From Mesorhizobium australicum (GTDB taxonomy: Bacteria > Pseudomonadota > Alphaproteobacteria > Rhizobiales > Rhizobiaceae): 64,000 bases of DNA. The DNA is taken from positions 1,984,001-2,048,000 of the forward strand of contig NZ_FXBL01000004.1 in NCBI RefSeq assembly GCF_900177325.1. Direction: 5' to 3'. The translations under genes were made by a program, and so were the position numbers. Each line of letters starts with the position of its first letter. Position 1 is the first letter of the stretch. Positions 15,811 through 54,445 of this stretch are shown here, one piece after another. Below the pieces are notes generated by a model. The model ran no database searches. It had not been told where the DNA came from and worked only from the letters and a program-made list of their open reading frames with translations.

Positions 15811-16092
15811 CTATGGGTTTTTGTGCGCGGTGACGTAGGCTTTCAGGACCGCCTGCATCTTGGTCAGGTGACCCTTGCCGCCCGCCTGCTGGTGAAAGAA
15901 CTCGAATACGTCGGGGTCTAGCTTCAGGTGGACGGAACGAGGCCGCTTTGGTCCCTCGATCTTCGCCTTTGCCCAAAATTCAGCATCGAGGCTTTCGCCT
16001 TCCGGCGCATTCGGATCGTGGAACAATTCATTCCGATCCTTCATCCGCCTTATGTCGGCGAGCGATGCCCGCCTGATATCCGACTCGCTCAT
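15811..16092 (-). CDS. brnA: BrnA-family antitoxin
   Basis: A 93-residue antitoxin. The acidic N-terminal half (LFHDPNAPEGESLDAEFWAKAKI) should wrap the toxin; the C-terminal half (PRSVHLKLDPDVFEFFHQQAGGKGHLTKMQAVLKAYV) is the ribbon-helix-helix DNA-binding part that represses the operon. Its first 65 bp overlap the 3' end of the brnT frame. The antitoxin looks intact. Confidence 0.82.
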   Translation of the reverse strand: MSESDIRRASLADIRRMKDRNELFHDPNAPEGESLDAEFWAKAKIEGPKRPRSVHLKLDPDVFEFFHQQAGGKGHLTKMQAVLKAYVTAHKNP

Positions 16093-16270
16093 CGCGGCCT
16101 CCTTTCCATGCGGTAATCAAGCGAGTGAAACCGTTCGGCTCGGTGTGCACGACGACGAAGCACTCGCCATCGACCTCGCCCAATGAGATCAGTCTTTCCT
16201 CACCATAGTCCTTGCGGTCGTCGGGACGCGTGAGAACCTCGCCTTCGAATATCAGCGCGGCATAGACCAT
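16028..16270 (-). CDS. brnT: BrnT-family toxin, 5' end damaged
   Basis: The frame matches BrnT, a small RNase-fold toxin: DRKDYGEERLISLGEVDGECFVVVHTE and RLITAWKGG are the family core. The conserved N-terminal segment LEWDEKKRQQVIRERGVD is encoded in frame upstream (up to about 16324), but no ATG, GTG or TTG precedes it before an in-frame TGA at 16352-16354. The only canonical in-frame start is ATG 16270, giving 80 residues without the first helix. An out-of-frame ATG at 16355 (MSSKLDGLFTT) suggests a past frameshift near 16325. The toxin may be inactive or truncated. Confidence 0.65.
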   Translation of the reverse strand: MVYAALIFEGEVLTRPDDRKDYGEERLISLGEVDGECFVVVHTEPNGFTRLITAWKGGRDERVGYQAGIARRHKADEGSE

Positions 16271-38044: not shown

Positions 38045-38461
38045 TCAACTCGTTCGGTCTACGGAGCGAAAAGGCCGCTCGCGGATCATCCGGCGGACGA
38101 CCGGCACGAAGAAGCCGTCGCTGAAGGATCCCAATGCAGGATCAGGCAGAAGATAGAAGGAACGGCCGATCACGTCCACATTCGCTTCGTCGATGACGAT
38201 CCAGAGACGCATTCCAGCCGAGAGGCCGGCCCTCTTCTTCTCGGCCTCCGGAATCTCGACCGCTCTCTGGTCCGGCAGAGGCGCCTTCGATGTGATTGCG
38301 AGGAGGACGAGAACGTCGCCATCGGGTCGTGGAAGCCGGACGGCGACCGCGGCCGGGCGATCCTTTCGCCCTTCGGTCTCGCCCTTGGACGATTGCCGTG
38401 CCCAGAGATAGGGATAGCGTATGACGCTTCCGGTGCGCAGGTCGGCGCGCCGGTTCTTCAC
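38045..38461 (-). CDS. putative PemK/MazF-like toxin
   Basis: A 138-residue basic protein directly downstream of a Phd/YefM antitoxin. The frame LRTGSVIRYPYLWARQSSKGETEGRKDRPAAVAV resembles the start of PemK/MazF-like RNase toxins (a G-x-I-x-Y/F strand followed by a K-x-RPxxV strand), and LVLLAITSKAP matches the next strand. It begins within the last 4 bp of the antitoxin gene (ATGA), so they are translationally coupled. The toxin assignment rests on fold pattern and context. Confidence 0.65.
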   Translation of the reverse strand: MKNRRADLRTGSVIRYPYLWARQSSKGETEGRKDRPAAVAVRLPRPDGDVLVLLAITSKAPLPDQRAVEIPEAEKKRAGLSAGMRLWIVIDEANVDVIGRSFYLLPDPALGSFSDGFFVPVVRRMIRERPFRSVDRTS

Positions 38462-38727
38462 GCGGCATCCGTCTTGGTGTCGCGTTCATAGGCATCGAGC
38501 GCTGCCTCGATCTCCTTGACGAGCTCGTCCGGCATGTCCTCGATCCGGTAGGCTTTGCGCGTGTCGCCGTGGGCGCGGAGGCGTTCGAAGTCTTCGATGT
38601 TCATGAGGACGAGCCGAGGCTTGTTACGTTGGGTGATCGTCACCGGTGCCCGCATCGCCTCGGCGATGATGTCGCCTGATTTGCGCGACAGGTCGCTGGT
38701 GGTGAAGGTCGATCTCGACTTGGGCAT
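38458..38727 (-). CDS. Phd/YefM-family antitoxin
   Basis: An 89-residue antitoxin of the prevent-host-death family. The N-terminal dimer/DNA-binding part is FTTSDLSRKSGDIIAEAMRAPVTITQRNKPRLVLMNIEDFERL; the acidic C-terminus (DELVKEIEAALDAYERDTKTDAA) would bind the toxin. It overlaps the toxin by 4 bp. A palindromic operator lies just upstream at 38745-38773. Confidence 0.82.
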   Translation of the reverse strand: MPKSRSTFTTSDLSRKSGDIIAEAMRAPVTITQRNKPRLVLMNIEDFERLRAHGDTRKAYRIEDMPDELVKEIEAALDAYERDTKTDAA

Positions 38728-40668: not shown

Positions 40669-41421
40669 ATGAGCGAACATATCGTCGTCGAGCGCCACGG
40701 CGCCGTCCAGACCATCCGGATGAACCGCCCGGACAAGAAGAACGCCATCACGCGCGCCATGTACGGCGCGATGGCGAAGGCGTTGACAGACGGCGACGCC
40801 GATCCGGCGGTCAGGTGCCACCTCATCCTCGGCGTGCCCGGCGCCTTCTCGGCCGGCAACGACATGGCCGACTTCATGGTCGTCGCCATGGGCGGCGACG
40901 GCGGCACGGAGGTGTTCGACTTCCTGGTCGCGCTCGCCCGCGCGGCCAAGCCGATCGTCTCGGCCGCCGACGGCATCGCGGTCGGCATCGGCACGACGAT
41001 CCATTTCCACTGCGACATGACCTTCGCCACGCCGCGCACCATGTTCCACACCCCCTTCGTCGACCTCGGCATCGTGCCCGAAGCCGGCTCGACCCTGATC
41101 GCGCCGGCGCTGCTCGGCACGCAGGCATCCTTCGCGCTCCTGGCGCTCGGCGAGCCGTTTTCGGCCGAACGGGCGAAGGCGGCGGGACTGATCTACGAGG
41201 TCGTGGCGGAGGAAGAGCTGGAGAGCCGCGCGATGGCGGCGGCCACGTCGATTGCCGCCAAGCCGCCGGAGGCCCTGAAACTGTCGCGCGACCTGATGCG
41301 CGGCAACCGCGACGCTCTGGTCGAGCGGATCAAGGAGGAAGGGCGGCTGTTCACCGCGCGTCTTAAGTCCGACGAGACGAAGCAGGCGCTGATGGCGTTC
41401 ATGAGCAGGAAGAAGGGGTAG
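40669..41421 (+). CDS. enoyl-CoA hydratase/isomerase family protein
   Basis: A 250-residue crotonase-fold enzyme. MNRPDKKNAITRAMYGAM is the N-terminal motif; GVPGAFSAGNDMADF is the oxyanion loop; HTPFVDLGIVPEAGSTL is the second catalytic region. Of the hydratase glutamates only one may be present, so a hydratase or an isomerase role is open. It starts 8 bp after the acyl-CoA dehydrogenase gene. Confidence 0.88.
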   Translation: MSEHIVVERHGAVQTIRMNRPDKKNAITRAMYGAMAKALTDGDADPAVRCHLILGVPGAFSAGNDMADFMVVAMGGDGGTEVFDFLVALARAAKPIVSAADGIAVGIGTTIHFHCDMTFATPRTMFHTPFVDLGIVPEAGSTLIAPALLGTQASFALLALGEPFSAERAKAAGLIYEVVAEEELESRAMAAATSIAAKPPEALKLSRDLMRGNRDALVERIKEEGRLFTARLKSDETKQALMAFMSRKKG

Positions 41422-41626
41422 AGCTGCGGGCGGGGGGATTGAGGCAGAATATAGGGGTGGAGCTTTATATCTGAAAATCTGCGGTGGGGTGGGAGCGGAA
41501 GACAGCTTTTAGCCAGCGGCAGGCCAAATCTGACATCGTCCAGCCGCTACCAGGAATCCCTTGAACGCTGAGCAGGTTAGTCGACTTTGTTGCTCAAAAT
41601 GGGCTTGGCAATGACGGTGACACAGA

Positions 41627-42499
41627 ATGACGAAGCGCAAGAAGCCTTTGGGTCGCTGTCTGTTGACTGGCGTGGAGGGGCCTCTGGTGAAGTCGCATAT
41701 CATTCCGCGATTCGTGGCTGACAAGGCGCTCGGCCAAGCTCATCGGATACAGTTCGGCGAGGAGGGAAGGCCCCAACTCCTTTTCAATAGCTGGGCTGAC
41801 AACACCATTGTAGTTGCGCAAGGTGAGAAGCGGTTGGCGGATATCGACACCGCAGCGGCAAGGATATTTCGTAGCCTGGGCTTGTCGTGGCGACATTTTC
41901 CGCTGACTGCTGATGCCAAGCGTGCGCAAATTGGCGCATTCGACAGTGAGTTGATTACGATCCCCGTAGCGATGGAGGATGCTGTCGCGCTTCGGTTGTT
42001 CTTCCTGAGCATTTTGTGGCGCTGCGCGGTCAGCTCAAGGGTAGAGTTTGCGGAGATATTTCTTGACCGGGCCGCCACAGAGAAGCTCCGCAGGATTATT
42101 CTCGGACTCGAACAACCCGGCGACTCCGATTTTCCCATCGTGTTGGTGCTTCTCACATCACAGGGCGAGCCCCAGGTTCATTCGCCGTTGGCGCAGACCA
42201 TCGACATGAAGGAGTTGGGATTTGACCTTCCTAACGTGCCGATATTTCGTTTCTTCTTCGACGGTTTGATTGTTCACATGGGGCGACAGCTCAATGACAA
42301 AGGCCTGCTGGAAGCGTGGGGCTCTAGAGTGGTCGGGACCAAGTCCGAACTGATACTTATCGGGCGGCCGTATGACGGTTCGTCCCAAGAGATGAATTTG
42401 GGCCATCTCAAACGGACGCTGTTCGAAGAGCATCCCGAACAAGCGATACGTATCTATCGGACATTGTGGGAAATAGACGCGCGAAACGGCAAGGAATAG
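41627..42499 (+). CDS. accessory protein with C-x2-TG...SHIIP (HNH-like) motif
   Basis: A 290-residue protein in a low-GC island. Residues 11-29 read CLLTGVEGPLVKSHIIPRF; a Cys-x2-TG pair followed by S-H-I-I-P is reminiscent of zinc-finger HNH-type nucleases (compare E/D-H-I-I-P), although a second Cys pair and the later His/Asn are not obvious. The rest is alpha/beta with no domain I recognise. The next gene starts 5 bp downstream, so both are one transcript. Codon use is visibly less GC-rich than the surrounding core genes. A function in nuclease-based defence is a guess. Confidence 0.6.
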   Translation: MTKRKKPLGRCLLTGVEGPLVKSHIIPRFVADKALGQAHRIQFGEEGRPQLLFNSWADNTIVVAQGEKRLADIDTAAARIFRSLGLSWRHFPLTADAKRAQIGAFDSELITIPVAMEDAVALRLFFLSILWRCAVSSRVEFAEIFLDRAATEKLRRIILGLEQPGDSDFPIVLVLLTSQGEPQVHSPLAQTIDMKELGFDLPNVPIFRFFFDGLIVHMGRQLNDKGLLEAWGSRVVGTKSELILIGRPYDGSSQEMNLGHLKRTLFEEHPEQAIRIYRTLWEIDARNGKE

Positions 42500-42504
42500 C
42501 AGCA

Positions 42505-43449
42505 GTGGCCCGGAGCGACGTTGATCAAATTCTTGCGCGCAAGGAGCGATGGGGAACCAATCGGGCGGCGATGGAGCTGTCTTCGGCAGTTGAGCGCCTT
42601 GAGCGCGAGTGGCTGGCAATTCGAAGACAGGCGGCCGCGTTCACAGACTTCATCCCGATGCGGTTGGTGACACTCATCGAGGTGTTCGTACGTGAGGTCA
42701 TCCGTGAGATTGTTGACTATGGACCGCCCTATCTCGATAGGGCGGAGAAGCTGGCGAAAGGGGCAAGGATAGACTTCATCTTTGCTTCGAACCTCCAGGG
42801 TCGGAAGCTATCCATCGGCGACTTGGTGGCTCACTCAATTCCGGTCAATAGCCCAACCAACATAATAGCTGCGTTTGAGGGGCTAATCCCCGATTTCACT
42901 GCCTCGCTTAAGCTGGCTCACCCTAGATGGTCAGAGGAAGTCGATACGTGGCCGCAACCTCCTGTCATTCAAGATTTTGACCTGACACTCGCCACGTTAA
43001 CAAAGCTATTTGAGGTCAGGCACATTCTCACCCACGAATTTCCCCAAGAGCGCCCGTACGAATCGAATGAAATTGTAGGCTTCTTGGCGGCCGCCCGTGA
43101 ACTGCTCAGCGCGATAGATTGGGTCATCGTAGACAAGCTGAAAGGGTCGGTCCCGCAAACACAGATCATGATGAATATTCAGGCGGGCAACTCCCTCATC
43201 GACCTTGAGGCGCAAATGAAAGGCCTGTTGCAGGCCGTCAGTGACAAACAGGACGTCAGTTCAGAGTTGCTGGAAACTAGCCAAATCGCGTGGCTCGAGT
43301 ATGCCGATAGGGAGGCAGATCTGCACGCATCGCTGGTTGAGGGCGGTTCTATGCATTCAATGGTATGGGCATCGGCAAAGTCAGACCTCGTGCGACATCG
43401 GATCGATGAACTGCAATGGTGGATCAATCGCGAGGAAGGAGACTTGTGA
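42505..43449 (+). CDS. HEPN-like protein with C-terminal LprI-like domain
   Basis: A 314-residue, mainly helical protein from GTG 42505 (AAGGA 9 nt upstream). R172-H-I-L-T-H177 in LFEVRHILTHEFP gives the R-x4-H motif of HEPN RNase domains, and the flanking helices (LAAARELLSAIDW) fit. Residues about 257-310 (AWLEYADREADLHASLVEGGSMHSMVWASAKSDLVRHRIDEL) resemble the LprI N-terminal (DUF1311) domain but lack its cysteines. Partner is the C-x2-TG/SHIIP gene. HEPN proteins often act as toxins or in antiviral systems; here that is inference. Confidence 0.6.
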   Translation: MARSDVDQILARKERWGTNRAAMELSSAVERLEREWLAIRRQAAAFTDFIPMRLVTLIEVFVREVIREIVDYGPPYLDRAEKLAKGARIDFIFASNLQGRKLSIGDLVAHSIPVNSPTNIIAAFEGLIPDFTASLKLAHPRWSEEVDTWPQPPVIQDFDLTLATLTKLFEVRHILTHEFPQERPYESNEIVGFLAAARELLSAIDWVIVDKLKGSVPQTQIMMNIQAGNSLIDLEAQMKGLLQAVSDKQDVSSELLETSQIAWLEYADREADLHASLVEGGSMHSMVWASAKSDLVRHRIDELQWWINREEGDL

Positions 43450-43579
43450 TGGTGCCGCCACTGGAGCTACGTTCCCTAGCCAATGACAGCTTTCGAGCAA
43501 TGCTCCAATGGACCTGCGTGACCGCAATGGGGTCGTAGCGGGCTCTTAAAATCGGCCGCTCTGTCCGCCCGCGCCCCCG

Positions 43580-43720
43580 TCATGGACAAAGCCTTATCTG
43601 CTCCCAACCGCCGACCTTCAGCGTGGCCGCCACCCGGCCGTGTAGGCGGAACGGCCGGTCGTGCCATACCTCGATCCGTGCCGCCAGCATGCGGACCCCC
43701 ACCAGCGAGGCGGTGTGACG
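43580..43720 (-). pseudogene. decayed 3' fragment of a pdxH gene
   Basis: On the minus strand this stretch reads [20 protein letters not shown]... ending GGWEQIRLCP and TGA (43580-43582). It matches the C-terminus of the intact PdxH at 46371-46985 (WHDRPFRLH identical, [10 protein letters not shown]). Only about 45 codons are left, without start or N-terminal part. It is a remnant of a second pdxH, on the edge of the low-GC island. Confidence 0.75.
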
Positions 43721-43734
43721 TCTCCGACCGGTCA

Positions 43735-43757
43735 GCGGGCGGCGCGAGGCCGCCCGC
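43735..43757 (-). terminator. GC-rich hairpin near the phytase-like gene end
   Basis: GCGGGCGGC (43735-43743) and GGCCGCCCGC (43748-43757) form a strong stem 15 bp beyond the stop of the minus-strand phytase-like gene. There is no T run, so termination is only possible. Confidence 0.4.
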
Positions 43758-45130: not shown

Positions 45131-45478
45131 GGCGGGCTCCTTCGGAGGACTGGAAACCCGGACCGACTAACCGTCCTGCGTGACAGGACCTCTACCCTTG
45201 CATGACGAAACGATGTCGCGGGTGTTGATAGCCGGGAGTGCCTGCTCTTTCGGGTCTCTTGGCCGGTGCGCTTCGGCCTCAGATTACGCCCATCGCGCAT
45301 CGCCGCGGCGTTCGGATCTCCTGCGCCGCGATCCGGCGCAGCCCTTCGGAACGCGGCAATCCTCACACTTTGGATTTCGAAAGCCGTGACCAGGCTAGAT
45401 ACTGAATCCAGTGGACACCAATGAATTCTGCCGGTTTACTTGACGTTAGGGAATGTCGAACACTTGGGATATCTCAAT
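45131..45478. other. divergent intergenic region
   Basis: About 350 bp between the divergent phytase-like and beta-helix genes. It must hold both promoters. TTGACG at 45440 lies 39 bp before the beta-helix ATG without a good -10 at the right distance. I see no repeat or small gene. Confidence 0.4.
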
Positions 45479-46312
45479 ATGAAAACCGTCATTGCATCCG
45501 TGGGCGTCGCCCTGGCGTCATATGTGTCTTGCGCGCACGCTGAAGTTCAGGATTGCATCGAGATCGTTTCCCTACCGGCAGTGATCACCCAGCAAGGGAT
45601 TCATTGCATGAAGAAGGATCTCGCCACCTCCGCCACGACCGGTAATGCAATTACCATCAACGCCAACAACGTGACCATCGAGATGAACGGCTACAAGCTC
45701 GGCGGCTTGGGCGGCGGCGTGAACACTCAAGCAACGGGCATCTCTGCCTACAATCGTCAGAACATAACCATCCGTAACGGCGCGATCCGCGGCTTTCTTC
45801 ACAATGTCAAAATCGAAGGCCCGCAGATCGGAGGGTCGAGCACGGGTCATCTCATCGAAAATGTCAGGAGTGAGAGCGCGCGCTATGTCGGTCTTTGGAT
45901 AATGGGTTCGCATTCGGTCGTGAAAAACAACACGGTGATCTTAACCGGCGGCGGAACTCTCGCTTCCGCGTACGGCATCGTCGTTCAGTTCGGCGAGGGA
46001 CATTCCGTCATGAACAACATCGTCAACGACGTTTCGGAGAGCAACCTGGCTTACGGTATTACAGCGTCGGACACGATTGGCGCGGTCGTCGAGGGTAATC
46101 AGGTCCGGGATGTCGCGGCCAGTACGTCGTACGGCATTTTCTCGTCCGGAGAGCGGAACGTCATCCAACGGAATACTATTATCAACTTTTCGGCCGGCAC
46201 CACCGGAATAGACGGCCAGGCGACCAACGACGCGTGTATAGGGAACGCGATCACGAATTTCACCGCGCCGCTCAACGGATGCTCGCTGTCCAGCGGAAAT
46301 CTGACGTTCTGA
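45479..46312 (+). CDS. secreted right-handed beta-helix protein
   Basis: A 277-residue protein with a signal peptide (KTVIASVGVALASYVSCAHA). It then shows repeated short strands of the parallel beta-helix type: NITIRNGAIRGF, GHLIENVRSESA, HSVVKNNTVILTGG, HSVMNNIVNDVSES, GAVVEGNQVRDVA, RNVIQRNTIINFS. This fold is used by pectate lyase-like and NosD-like surface proteins. Substrate unknown. Base composition is lower in GC than neighbours, so it may have been acquired. Confidence 0.75.
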   Translation: MKTVIASVGVALASYVSCAHAEVQDCIEIVSLPAVITQQGIHCMKKDLATSATTGNAITINANNVTIEMNGYKLGGLGGGVNTQATGISAYNRQNITIRNGAIRGFLHNVKIEGPQIGGSSTGHLIENVRSESARYVGLWIMGSHSVVKNNTVILTGGGTLASAYGIVVQFGEGHSVMNNIVNDVSESNLAYGITASDTIGAVVEGNQVRDVAASTSYGIFSSGERNVIQRNTIINFSAGTTGIDGQATNDACIGNAITNFTAPLNGCSLSSGNLTF

Positions 46313-46370: not shown

Positions 46371-46985
46371 TTACGGATAGAGCCGCGTCTTCTCCCAGCC
46401 GCCCGCGCCATGCGTGAAGACCACCCTGTCGTGCAGGCGGAACGGCCGGTCGTGCCAGAACTCGATCTGCGTCGGCATGATGCGGAAGCCGGACCAGTGG
46501 GGCGGGCGGGGAATATCGCCGACGGGATAGCGGGCGGTGTATTCGGCGACTGCCTTCTCCAGCGCGAAGCGGCTTTCGAGCGGACGCGACTGCTTCGACG
46601 CCCAGGCACCGATGCGGCTGCCGCGCGGCCGGCTGGTGTAATATTCGTCCGCCTCGGCATCGCTGACGATCTCGACCGGCCCGCGCACCCGCACCTGCCG
46701 GCGCAGGCTCTTCCAGTGGAAGCACATAGCGGCCTTCATCGAGCCGAGGATCTCGCGGCCCTTGGCGCTCTCGAAATTGGTGTAGAAGACGAAGCCGCGC
46801 TCGTCATAGCCCTTGAGCAGGACCATGCGCACGTCGGGCAGGCCGTTTTCGTCGACGGTCGCGAGCGCGAGCGCATTCGGGTCGTTCATCTCGCTCTTCG
46901 TCGCGTCGGCGAGCCATTCGCCGAACAGGCGAAGCGGCTCCTCCGCGAGCGTGAAGTCACTTTCCGTTAACCCTGGTGCAGCCAT
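46371..46985 (-). CDS. pdxH: pyridoxamine 5'-phosphate oxidase
   Basis: A 204-residue FMN enzyme that makes pyridoxal 5'-phosphate (vitamin B6). [55 protein letters not shown] and [12 protein letters not shown] (C-terminal PLP/FMN site) are all present. The start at 46985 gives [12 protein letters not shown] decayed copy of its 3' end lies at 43580-43720. Confidence 0.95.
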
Positions 46986-54150: not shown

Positions 54151-54168
54151 TTAGCCAAGCTTGGCTAA
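54151..54168 (+). promoter_or_regulatory. perfect 18-bp palindrome (operator) of the antitoxin gene
   Basis: TTAGCCAAGCTTGGCTAA is a perfect palindrome. It lies 11 bp before the ATG at 54179 and its right end overlaps the ribosome-binding site AAGGAGG. This is a likely autoregulatory site of the antitoxin. Confidence 0.65.
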
Positions 54169-54178
54169 GGAGGCCGGG

Positions 54179-54445
54179 ATGCGCAAGGTCGACATGCTCG
54201 AGGCGAAGAACTCGCTCTCCCGCCTCGTCAAGGCGGTCGAGAGCGGTGCCGAGCCCGAGATCATCATTGCCCGCAATGGCAAGCCCGCGGTCAGGATCGT
54301 GCCGATGAGCCACGCACGCAAGCGGGGCATCGTGCTGGGCTTACTGGAAGGCAAGCATCCGCCGATGACGCTGGAGCAGTTAAACTCGACCGACGCTGAG
54401 ATCGCTGCATTGTTCGAGGCGTCCGAGATTGAACCTCCTCGTTGA
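54179..54445 (+). CDS. Phd/YefM-type antitoxin without intact toxin
   Basis: An 88-residue antitoxin: MRKVDMLEAKNSLSRLVKAVESG with EIIIARNGKPAVRIVPM is the prevent-host-death N-terminal fold. The C-terminus (EQLNSTDAEIAALFEASEIE) would bind a PIN-type toxin. AAGGAGG lies 5 nt before ATG 54179. The downstream PIN toxin frame is broken, so this is probably an orphan antitoxin. Confidence 0.78.
   Translation: MRKVDMLEAKNSLSRLVKAVESGAEPEIIIARNGKPAVRIVPMSHARKRGIVLGLLEGKHPPMTLEQLNSTDAEIAALFEASEIEPPR

Follow-up and report, generated by a model that had tools for sequence, protein, structure and literature searches.

A Low-GC Two-Gene Island Encoding a Predicted HEPN-LprI Protein and an HNH-Related Protein at a Variable Chromosomal Site of Mesorhizobium australicum

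A stretch of 64,000 nucleotides from Mesorhizobium australicum (RefSeq assembly GCF_900177325.1, contig NZ_FXBL01000004.1, positions 1,984,001 to 2,048,000; hereafter the window, from whose first letter positions are counted) contains a horizontally acquired insert of low guanine-plus-cytosine (GC) content that carries two adjacent genes, here named A and B. Gene B (42505-43449, forward strand) encodes a protein of 314 amino acids (aa) which, judged from sequence motifs, a structural model and a domain match, is a HEPN domain fused to an LprI/DUF1311 domain and is probably a ribonuclease (RNase). Gene A (41627-42499, forward strand, ATG start) encodes a 290-aa protein placed by its sequence in a branch, lacking the zinc site, of an HNH-like family with four cysteines. 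Relatives of both genes occur as mobile cargo in prophages and plasmids and near known defence genes. The explanation that we favour with moderate confidence is that the island would be imported anti-phage cargo, in which B would act as an infection-triggered abortive-infection RNase and A as a second, non-obligatory defence gene.

Gene B as a Predicted HEPN-LprI Fusion Protein

By examining the translation of gene B, a HEPN domain was delimited at about residues 18-215 (42556..43149, forward strand), followed by an LprI/DUF1311 domain at about residues 220-310 (43162..43434, forward strand). The gene is read from a GTG at 42505 with AAGGA about 9 nt upstream; use of another in-frame GTG, further upstream at 42466, would make the gene overlap with A. 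The alignment of this family (A2) comprises the window's B and 34 of its 45 homologues. R172 and H177, which belong to the R172-H173-x3-H177 motif within the segment RHILTH, are invariant in all 35 rows, and so are E59 and R63 of an upstream E-x3-[KR] motif. According to PMC3710099, HEPN proteins are defined by R-x4-6-H with a polar residue after the arginine, and the upstream E-x3-[KR] is found in many HEPN families; B has the former motif, with H173 as the polar residue. The model of B (predicted local distance difference test, pLDDT, 80.0) has a HEPN-like predicted fold with the expected helical arrangement. YutE is a HEPN relative. The RiboL-PSP-HEPN family (PF18735) was matched by two divergent relatives of B, one from locus L023 with 31.4 bits, above the cut-off of 28.4, and one with 26.6 bits, below it; a third relative scored 12.8 bits, and B itself gave no PF18735 match at E 1. 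For the C-terminal part, the LprI family PF07007 was matched with 42.8 bits, the cut-off being 22. A preliminary description of this region had proposed both the RHILTH motif of HEPN RNases and its junction with an LprI/DUF1311-like segment, and both proposals are borne out by the invariant residues, the predicted fold and the domain match.

The LprI part of B differs from stand-alone members of its family. PMC7933661 describes conserved cysteines in LprI family members. By counting cysteines, three or more were found in 26 of 28 stand-alone LprI domains (29 minus L070, the C-terminal half of a broken B), whereas the last 100 residues contain none in 30 of the 35 A2 rows, the window's B included. 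Thus, the usual LprI cysteines are mostly lost, and B is therefore probably cytoplasmic; no signal-like sequence was seen by eye at its N-terminus. In the model, the fold of this part is near that of the type VI secretion system-type immunity protein 4nso. B differs from such immunity proteins and from LprI/DUF1311 proteins (PF07007; PDB 3gi7) in its lack of cysteines and its fusion to HEPN. The similarity of fold, together with the proposal of LprI-domain proteins as immunity proteins in PMC8867033 and PMC12135965, would fit a reading of B as an immunity-type guard against peptidoglycan hydrolases or envelope stress, with a structural role for HEPN. We regard this as hardly probable, since no signal-like N-terminus is visible, cysteines are few or absent, the HEPN catalytic residues are invariant, and B occurs in prophages and in a restriction locus.

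By analogy, the nearest working model for B is Tha, a HEPN anti-phage RNase of a Staphylococcus aureus prophage, which is switched on by phage tail proteins (PMC11087260). Tha resembles B in being prophage-borne and about 300 aa long, and has an R-N-x3-H HEPN motif and an abortive-infection-like action; B-type proteins likewise lie next to phage structural genes in the prophages of L047, L052 and L051, the L051 copy being broken. On the other hand, the HEPN domain of Tha is C-terminal, its N-terminal part shows no discernible domain and an inhibitor gene is present, whereas in B the HEPN domain comes first and the LprI domain last. Another prophage-borne protein, HepS of Gifsy-1 (PDB 9oij), gave no match with the B profile, and its chain of 191 residues leaves no room for a further LprI domain as large as that of B; no paper on 9oij was found.

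With Tha as the model, B would be a cytoplasmic HEPN RNase that stays inactive until infection, and its LprI-type C-terminal domain would be the likely sensor or regulator that switches HEPN on. Active B would then cut RNA and stop the infected cell by abortive infection, as the prophage-borne Tha does. A more specific but decidedly improbable version takes the cysteine-poor LprI domain as a cytoplasmic sensor of phage endolysin and A as an additional effector of HNH descent and novel fold. The LprI domain would bind the peptidoglycan hydrolase stockpiled before lysis, in the way that immunity-type proteins with this fold bind, or have been proposed to bind, hydrolases of this kind outside the cytoplasm, and the HEPN RNase would thereby be released. 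This version is suggested because LprI-type proteins are proposed cell-wall-hydrolase immunity proteins and share the 4nso fold. It is ranked low because of PMC7933661, according to which an LprI-domain protein gave no lysozyme inhibition, no experiment shows the LprI domain to be the inhibitor, and a second domain of the mycobacterial LprI suffices for lysozyme resistance.

Gene A and Its Relation to HNH Proteins

The N-terminal part of A contains the motif C11-L-L-T-G ... K-S-H24-I-I-P27 (41657..41707, forward strand), in which the cysteine of C-x2-T-G is C11 and SHIIP runs from S23-H24 onward. The protein has 46 homologues besides itself, and 31 of these were aligned with it (alignment A1, 32 rows). 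C11, H24, D58, E67, D74, W131 and R132 are invariant in all rows. Among 120 listed proteins, 111 were long enough to use, and the full four-cysteine pattern was present in 99 of them. In a pairwise run, the four-cysteine relatives of A aligned with HNH_5 (PF14279) at 88% probability over 23 columns, covering the first knuckle and the histidine. For A itself the probability was 40%, with H24 aligned to the HNH_5 histidine, and the downstream N/H residues of the HNH motif were not found in A, the HNH_5 profile alignment ending after these 23 columns.

Compared with HNH_5, A has lost three of the four cysteines, has E67, beyond the lost second knuckle, at the place where HNH_5 carries CxxC-N, and extends about 200 residues further. 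A CxxC before the H..P motif was found in none of 47 A-type proteins, several of which are N-terminally truncated, and the later cysteine pair is replaced too. On sequence grounds, A is placed in a branch of this HNH-like family in which, of the four cysteines, one has been retained together with the histidine of SHIIP.

The AlphaFold2 model of A is confident (pLDDT 88.5, predicted template modelling score 0.88) and has a strand-strand-helix order by DSSP, and no PDB fold match was found for it. In BFVD, the single match at E <= 0.001 was an uncharacterised phage protein (E 9.4e-11), and searches of Pfam, NCBIfam and PADLOC gave no match. Phage families of unknown function were matched by most or many members of A1, namely PHROG 19960 (31 of 32, best E 4.4e-9), PHROG 7075 (27 of 32, best E 5.1e-8) and PHROG 26326 (17 of 32, best E 2.5e-4). 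The family of A has no name; its fold is predicted with confidence, and no relative of solved structure was found. In the preliminary description, C-x2-T-G and SHIIP had been taken as signs of an HNH-like zinc nuclease; the motifs and the HNH-like family relation hold, the paired cysteines are lacking, no PDB fold match was found, and the identification as an HNH nuclease finds little or no support.

A Variable Site Downstream of an Enoyl-CoA Hydratase Gene

The insert lies at 41442..43518 (no strand assigned; limits set by comparison with L120, one of four stretches from same-genus genomes, L119 to L122) in a variable site 3' of an enoyl-CoA hydratase gene. It is 2,077 bp long with a GC content of 0.546, and the window's GC minimum for segments of this length coincides with it to within a few bases. 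The low-GC island of the preliminary description is thus real: GC is 0.550 in A and 0.545 in B against 0.661 in the window, and third-position GC is 0.65 and 0.63 against 0.89 and 0.93 in the two upstream genes. Its two co-oriented genes are both open and are separated by 5 nt, and they are not chance reading frames, because both have homologues.

Alignment of the left flank with the four same-genus genomes ends at window positions 41421-41448, the end of the enoyl-CoA hydratase gene, and alignment of the right flank resumes at 43519 (L120), 43585 (L122), 43656 (L119) and 43781 (L121). A and B are missing at the corresponding site in all four, no HEPN-LprI gene was found among the open frames of these stretches, and the content between the flanks differs in each; gene A is present in one of seven genomes of the genus, the window's own. 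The cargo of L120 is a 144-aa protein with RNEAAH, which has no Pfam match and is HEPN by motif only. L122 has one divergent unknown gene and two genes with RNELAH and RNPTAH; the latter is Hypoth_Ymh (PF09509, E 7.5e-39), listed as a HEPN family in PMC3710099, and the former has no Pfam match and is HEPN by motif only. In L121 the cargo is a protein of 325 aa, apparently with a membrane segment at its N-terminus and with no Pfam match (L121:8704-9678), and L119 carries TetR, SnoaL-like and ABM genes. Five genomes of the genus, the window's included, thus have five different cargoes, with HEPN-type genes in three (in one by motif only). Since the flanks are common and the cargo differs in every relative, cargo is exchanged at this site after the enoyl-CoA hydratase gene, a small hot spot with recurrent HEPN-type genes into which the A-B pair was inserted.

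Near the right edge of the site, a degenerate duplicate of the 3' end of pdxH was found (43583..43742, reverse strand). The segment 43584-43742 is 71% identical to 46375-46537 at the pdxH 3' end, as a direct repeat, and tblastn gave 59% identity over 39 aa. The duplicate is present in L120 and L122, partial in L119 and not seen in L121; it is possibly an old integration scar. In L122, a phytase-like gene to the right of the hot spot has shrunk to a short remnant beside the pdxH remnant (L122:7118-7407).

Association of A and B

The preliminary description had regarded the two genes as a nuclease and HEPN RNase pair, and the distribution of both families allows this to be examined. Excluding eight duplicate and four four-cysteine loci, 59 distinct A loci were available, and within the stretches covered B occurs at five of these, always as a direct neighbour, in three arrangements. 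Homologues that never co-occur, which the preliminary description had named as refuting the pair, are thus not what is seen. B follows A within a few nt on the same strand in the window's own locus (L001) and in L002, and about 100 bp after A in L018; it lies about 140 bp before A in L023, and the two genes are divergent and about 100 bp apart in L008. A is absent from 14 of 19 B loci (L052, the same element as L161, being left out), in two of which the sequence ends just after B. The remaining five are an unfair sample, because L001 is the locus of the window itself and the other four (L002, L008, L018 and L023) were obtained by searching with A. When searches were driven by B, A was found in none of six viral and none of four plasmid loci.

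In a sample of 397 genomes of the order, A was found in three and B, counted from match rows that reach the HEPN part, in four (one broken, one a fragment), with both in one genome. A sample of 385 genomes of the class contained B in four at E 1e-18, two of them common to the order sample. Among 265 genomes of another genus, A was found in four and B in six, and the two are adjacent in the one genome with both, which is probably the same contig as L023.

These data bear on an obligate two-component system, in which A would sense or cut phage nucleic acid and switch on B. The short gap and shared strand in the window, the similar layout in L002, the direct contact in all five A loci with B and the adjacency in the other genus would all agree with such a system, and direct A-B adjacency is far above the expectation for random placement. 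However, the two families are concentrated in the same kinds of mobile and defence regions, which means that adjacency is no proof of joint action; 54 of 59 A loci lack B in the stretches covered, most B loci lack A, and an A with 83% identity stands without B in L003. We therefore rate an obligate system as unlikely. Of the pair that had been proposed, the HEPN-LprI protein and the character of mobile cargo remain, and a fixed two-gene system and A as a nuclease find little or no support.

A further argument for such a system comes from three B loci without A that have an HNH-motif gene within two genes. HNH-motif genes make up three of 99 B neighbours against four of 1,324 controls (p 0.009); the motif was chosen after the cases had been seen, the enrichment is small, and in one of the three cases the HNH gene may belong to the site as a constant neighbour. 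Addition of L170, where B is truncated, lowers p to 0.0007; L170, however, has flanking genes in common with L159, so that the two do not count as independent. The linkage between HNH genes and B is suggestive at best, and a recurrent nuclease-HEPN pairing could be present. HNH-motif genes beside HEPN-LprI genes were located at L101:9589-10443, L159:8453-8905 and L160:8189-9025 and apparently belong to different HNH types.

A toxin-antitoxin system, with B as the HEPN toxin and A as its antitoxin, would be consistent with the adjacency of the genes, A ending just before B, and with the existence of partnered HEPN toxins such as HEPN-MNT (PMC7641770). It is very improbable, as the stable linkage of type II systems is not seen, B being mostly without A in the loci covered, and the relatives examined keep the catalytic motif. 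Moreover, A has no match in the three family databases searched and is larger than usual antitoxins.

Mobile and Defence Surroundings

The profile of A identified 16 viral-contig loci and 45 genome loci, four of them four-cysteine relatives, and searches with B yielded six viral-contig loci (profile) and four plasmids (protein). Some genes are missed by the gene calls, and the neighbour lists are thus approximate. In L063, A sits between the tail terminator and the major tail protein, and in L059 it is flanked by DUF4062 and endolysin genes. In L047, B is preceded by one phage gene of unknown function and followed by four small genes, and this group is bounded by a head-closure-like gene and the tail terminator; in L052, B is one gene removed from the large terminase, and the broken B of L051 adjoins the large terminase.

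Plasmid loci place both families near known defence genes. In L102, a type I restriction locus with RmrA, B has a DUF4062 gene on one side and an Mrr-type gene on the other, and in L101 it is about 5 kb from RnlA/RnlB. A is about 1 kb from multi-ubiquitin/ThiF/DUF6527 genes in L100, where the copy is annotated shorter than the match, and in L099, on the pAt plasmid, a Fic gene lies at a distance of 1.5 kb and an AbiEii-type gene at 7 kb. Close to the A-B pair of L002, at a distance of two genes, a conjugative coupling protein is encoded. When ten chosen B-neighbour proteins were searched individually with PADLOC, three gave matches; a search of 115 B neighbours returned family counts only, without protein names, and the UvrD-helicase matches near B in L104 may be housekeeping. 

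From this context, we infer an anti-phage function for A and B. In the reading favoured here, A would be a mobile defence gene of a phage-borne, HNH-derived family, probably co-transcribed with B, and would probably add a separate defence activity, perhaps in cooperation with B.

Several other genes were observed in and around these loci. In the window, a second low-GC gene (45440-46309, GC 0.554) encodes 290 aa with a right-handed beta-helix look by eye and no Pfam match; its region aligns in L119, whereas L120, L121 and L122 have the same flanks without it. The segments 15814-16270, 38048-38727 and 54161-54442 contain what we take to be small toxin-antitoxin genes, BrnT/BrnA-like and Phd-like by resemblance. 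At L125:8563-9591, some 30 bp beyond a HEPN-LprI relative, there is a gene that has the look of a proteasome-type hydrolase by eye and no Pfam match.

Significance

No paper dealing with both HEPN and LprI was found, and a bare listing in supplementary tables of defence screens is possible. The papers found on DUF1311 with phage, judged from titles, abstract openings and passages, contained no HEPN-LprI fusion, and no published test of A or B was found. HEPN RNases are common defence effectors whose triggers are mostly open. Because HEPN is here fused to the predicted fold of cell-wall-hydrolase immunity proteins, a specific and directly testable trigger is suggested; if the endolysin version were true, the lysis enzyme of the phage itself would shut the cell down. 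Gene A stands for a mobile family that is carried by phages and has a confidently predicted fold; in this family, the loss of the zinc site while the SHIIP histidine stays would represent a clear evolutionary change and invites study of the active site. Moreover, the exchange hot spot after the enoyl-CoA hydratase gene can be mined across the genus.
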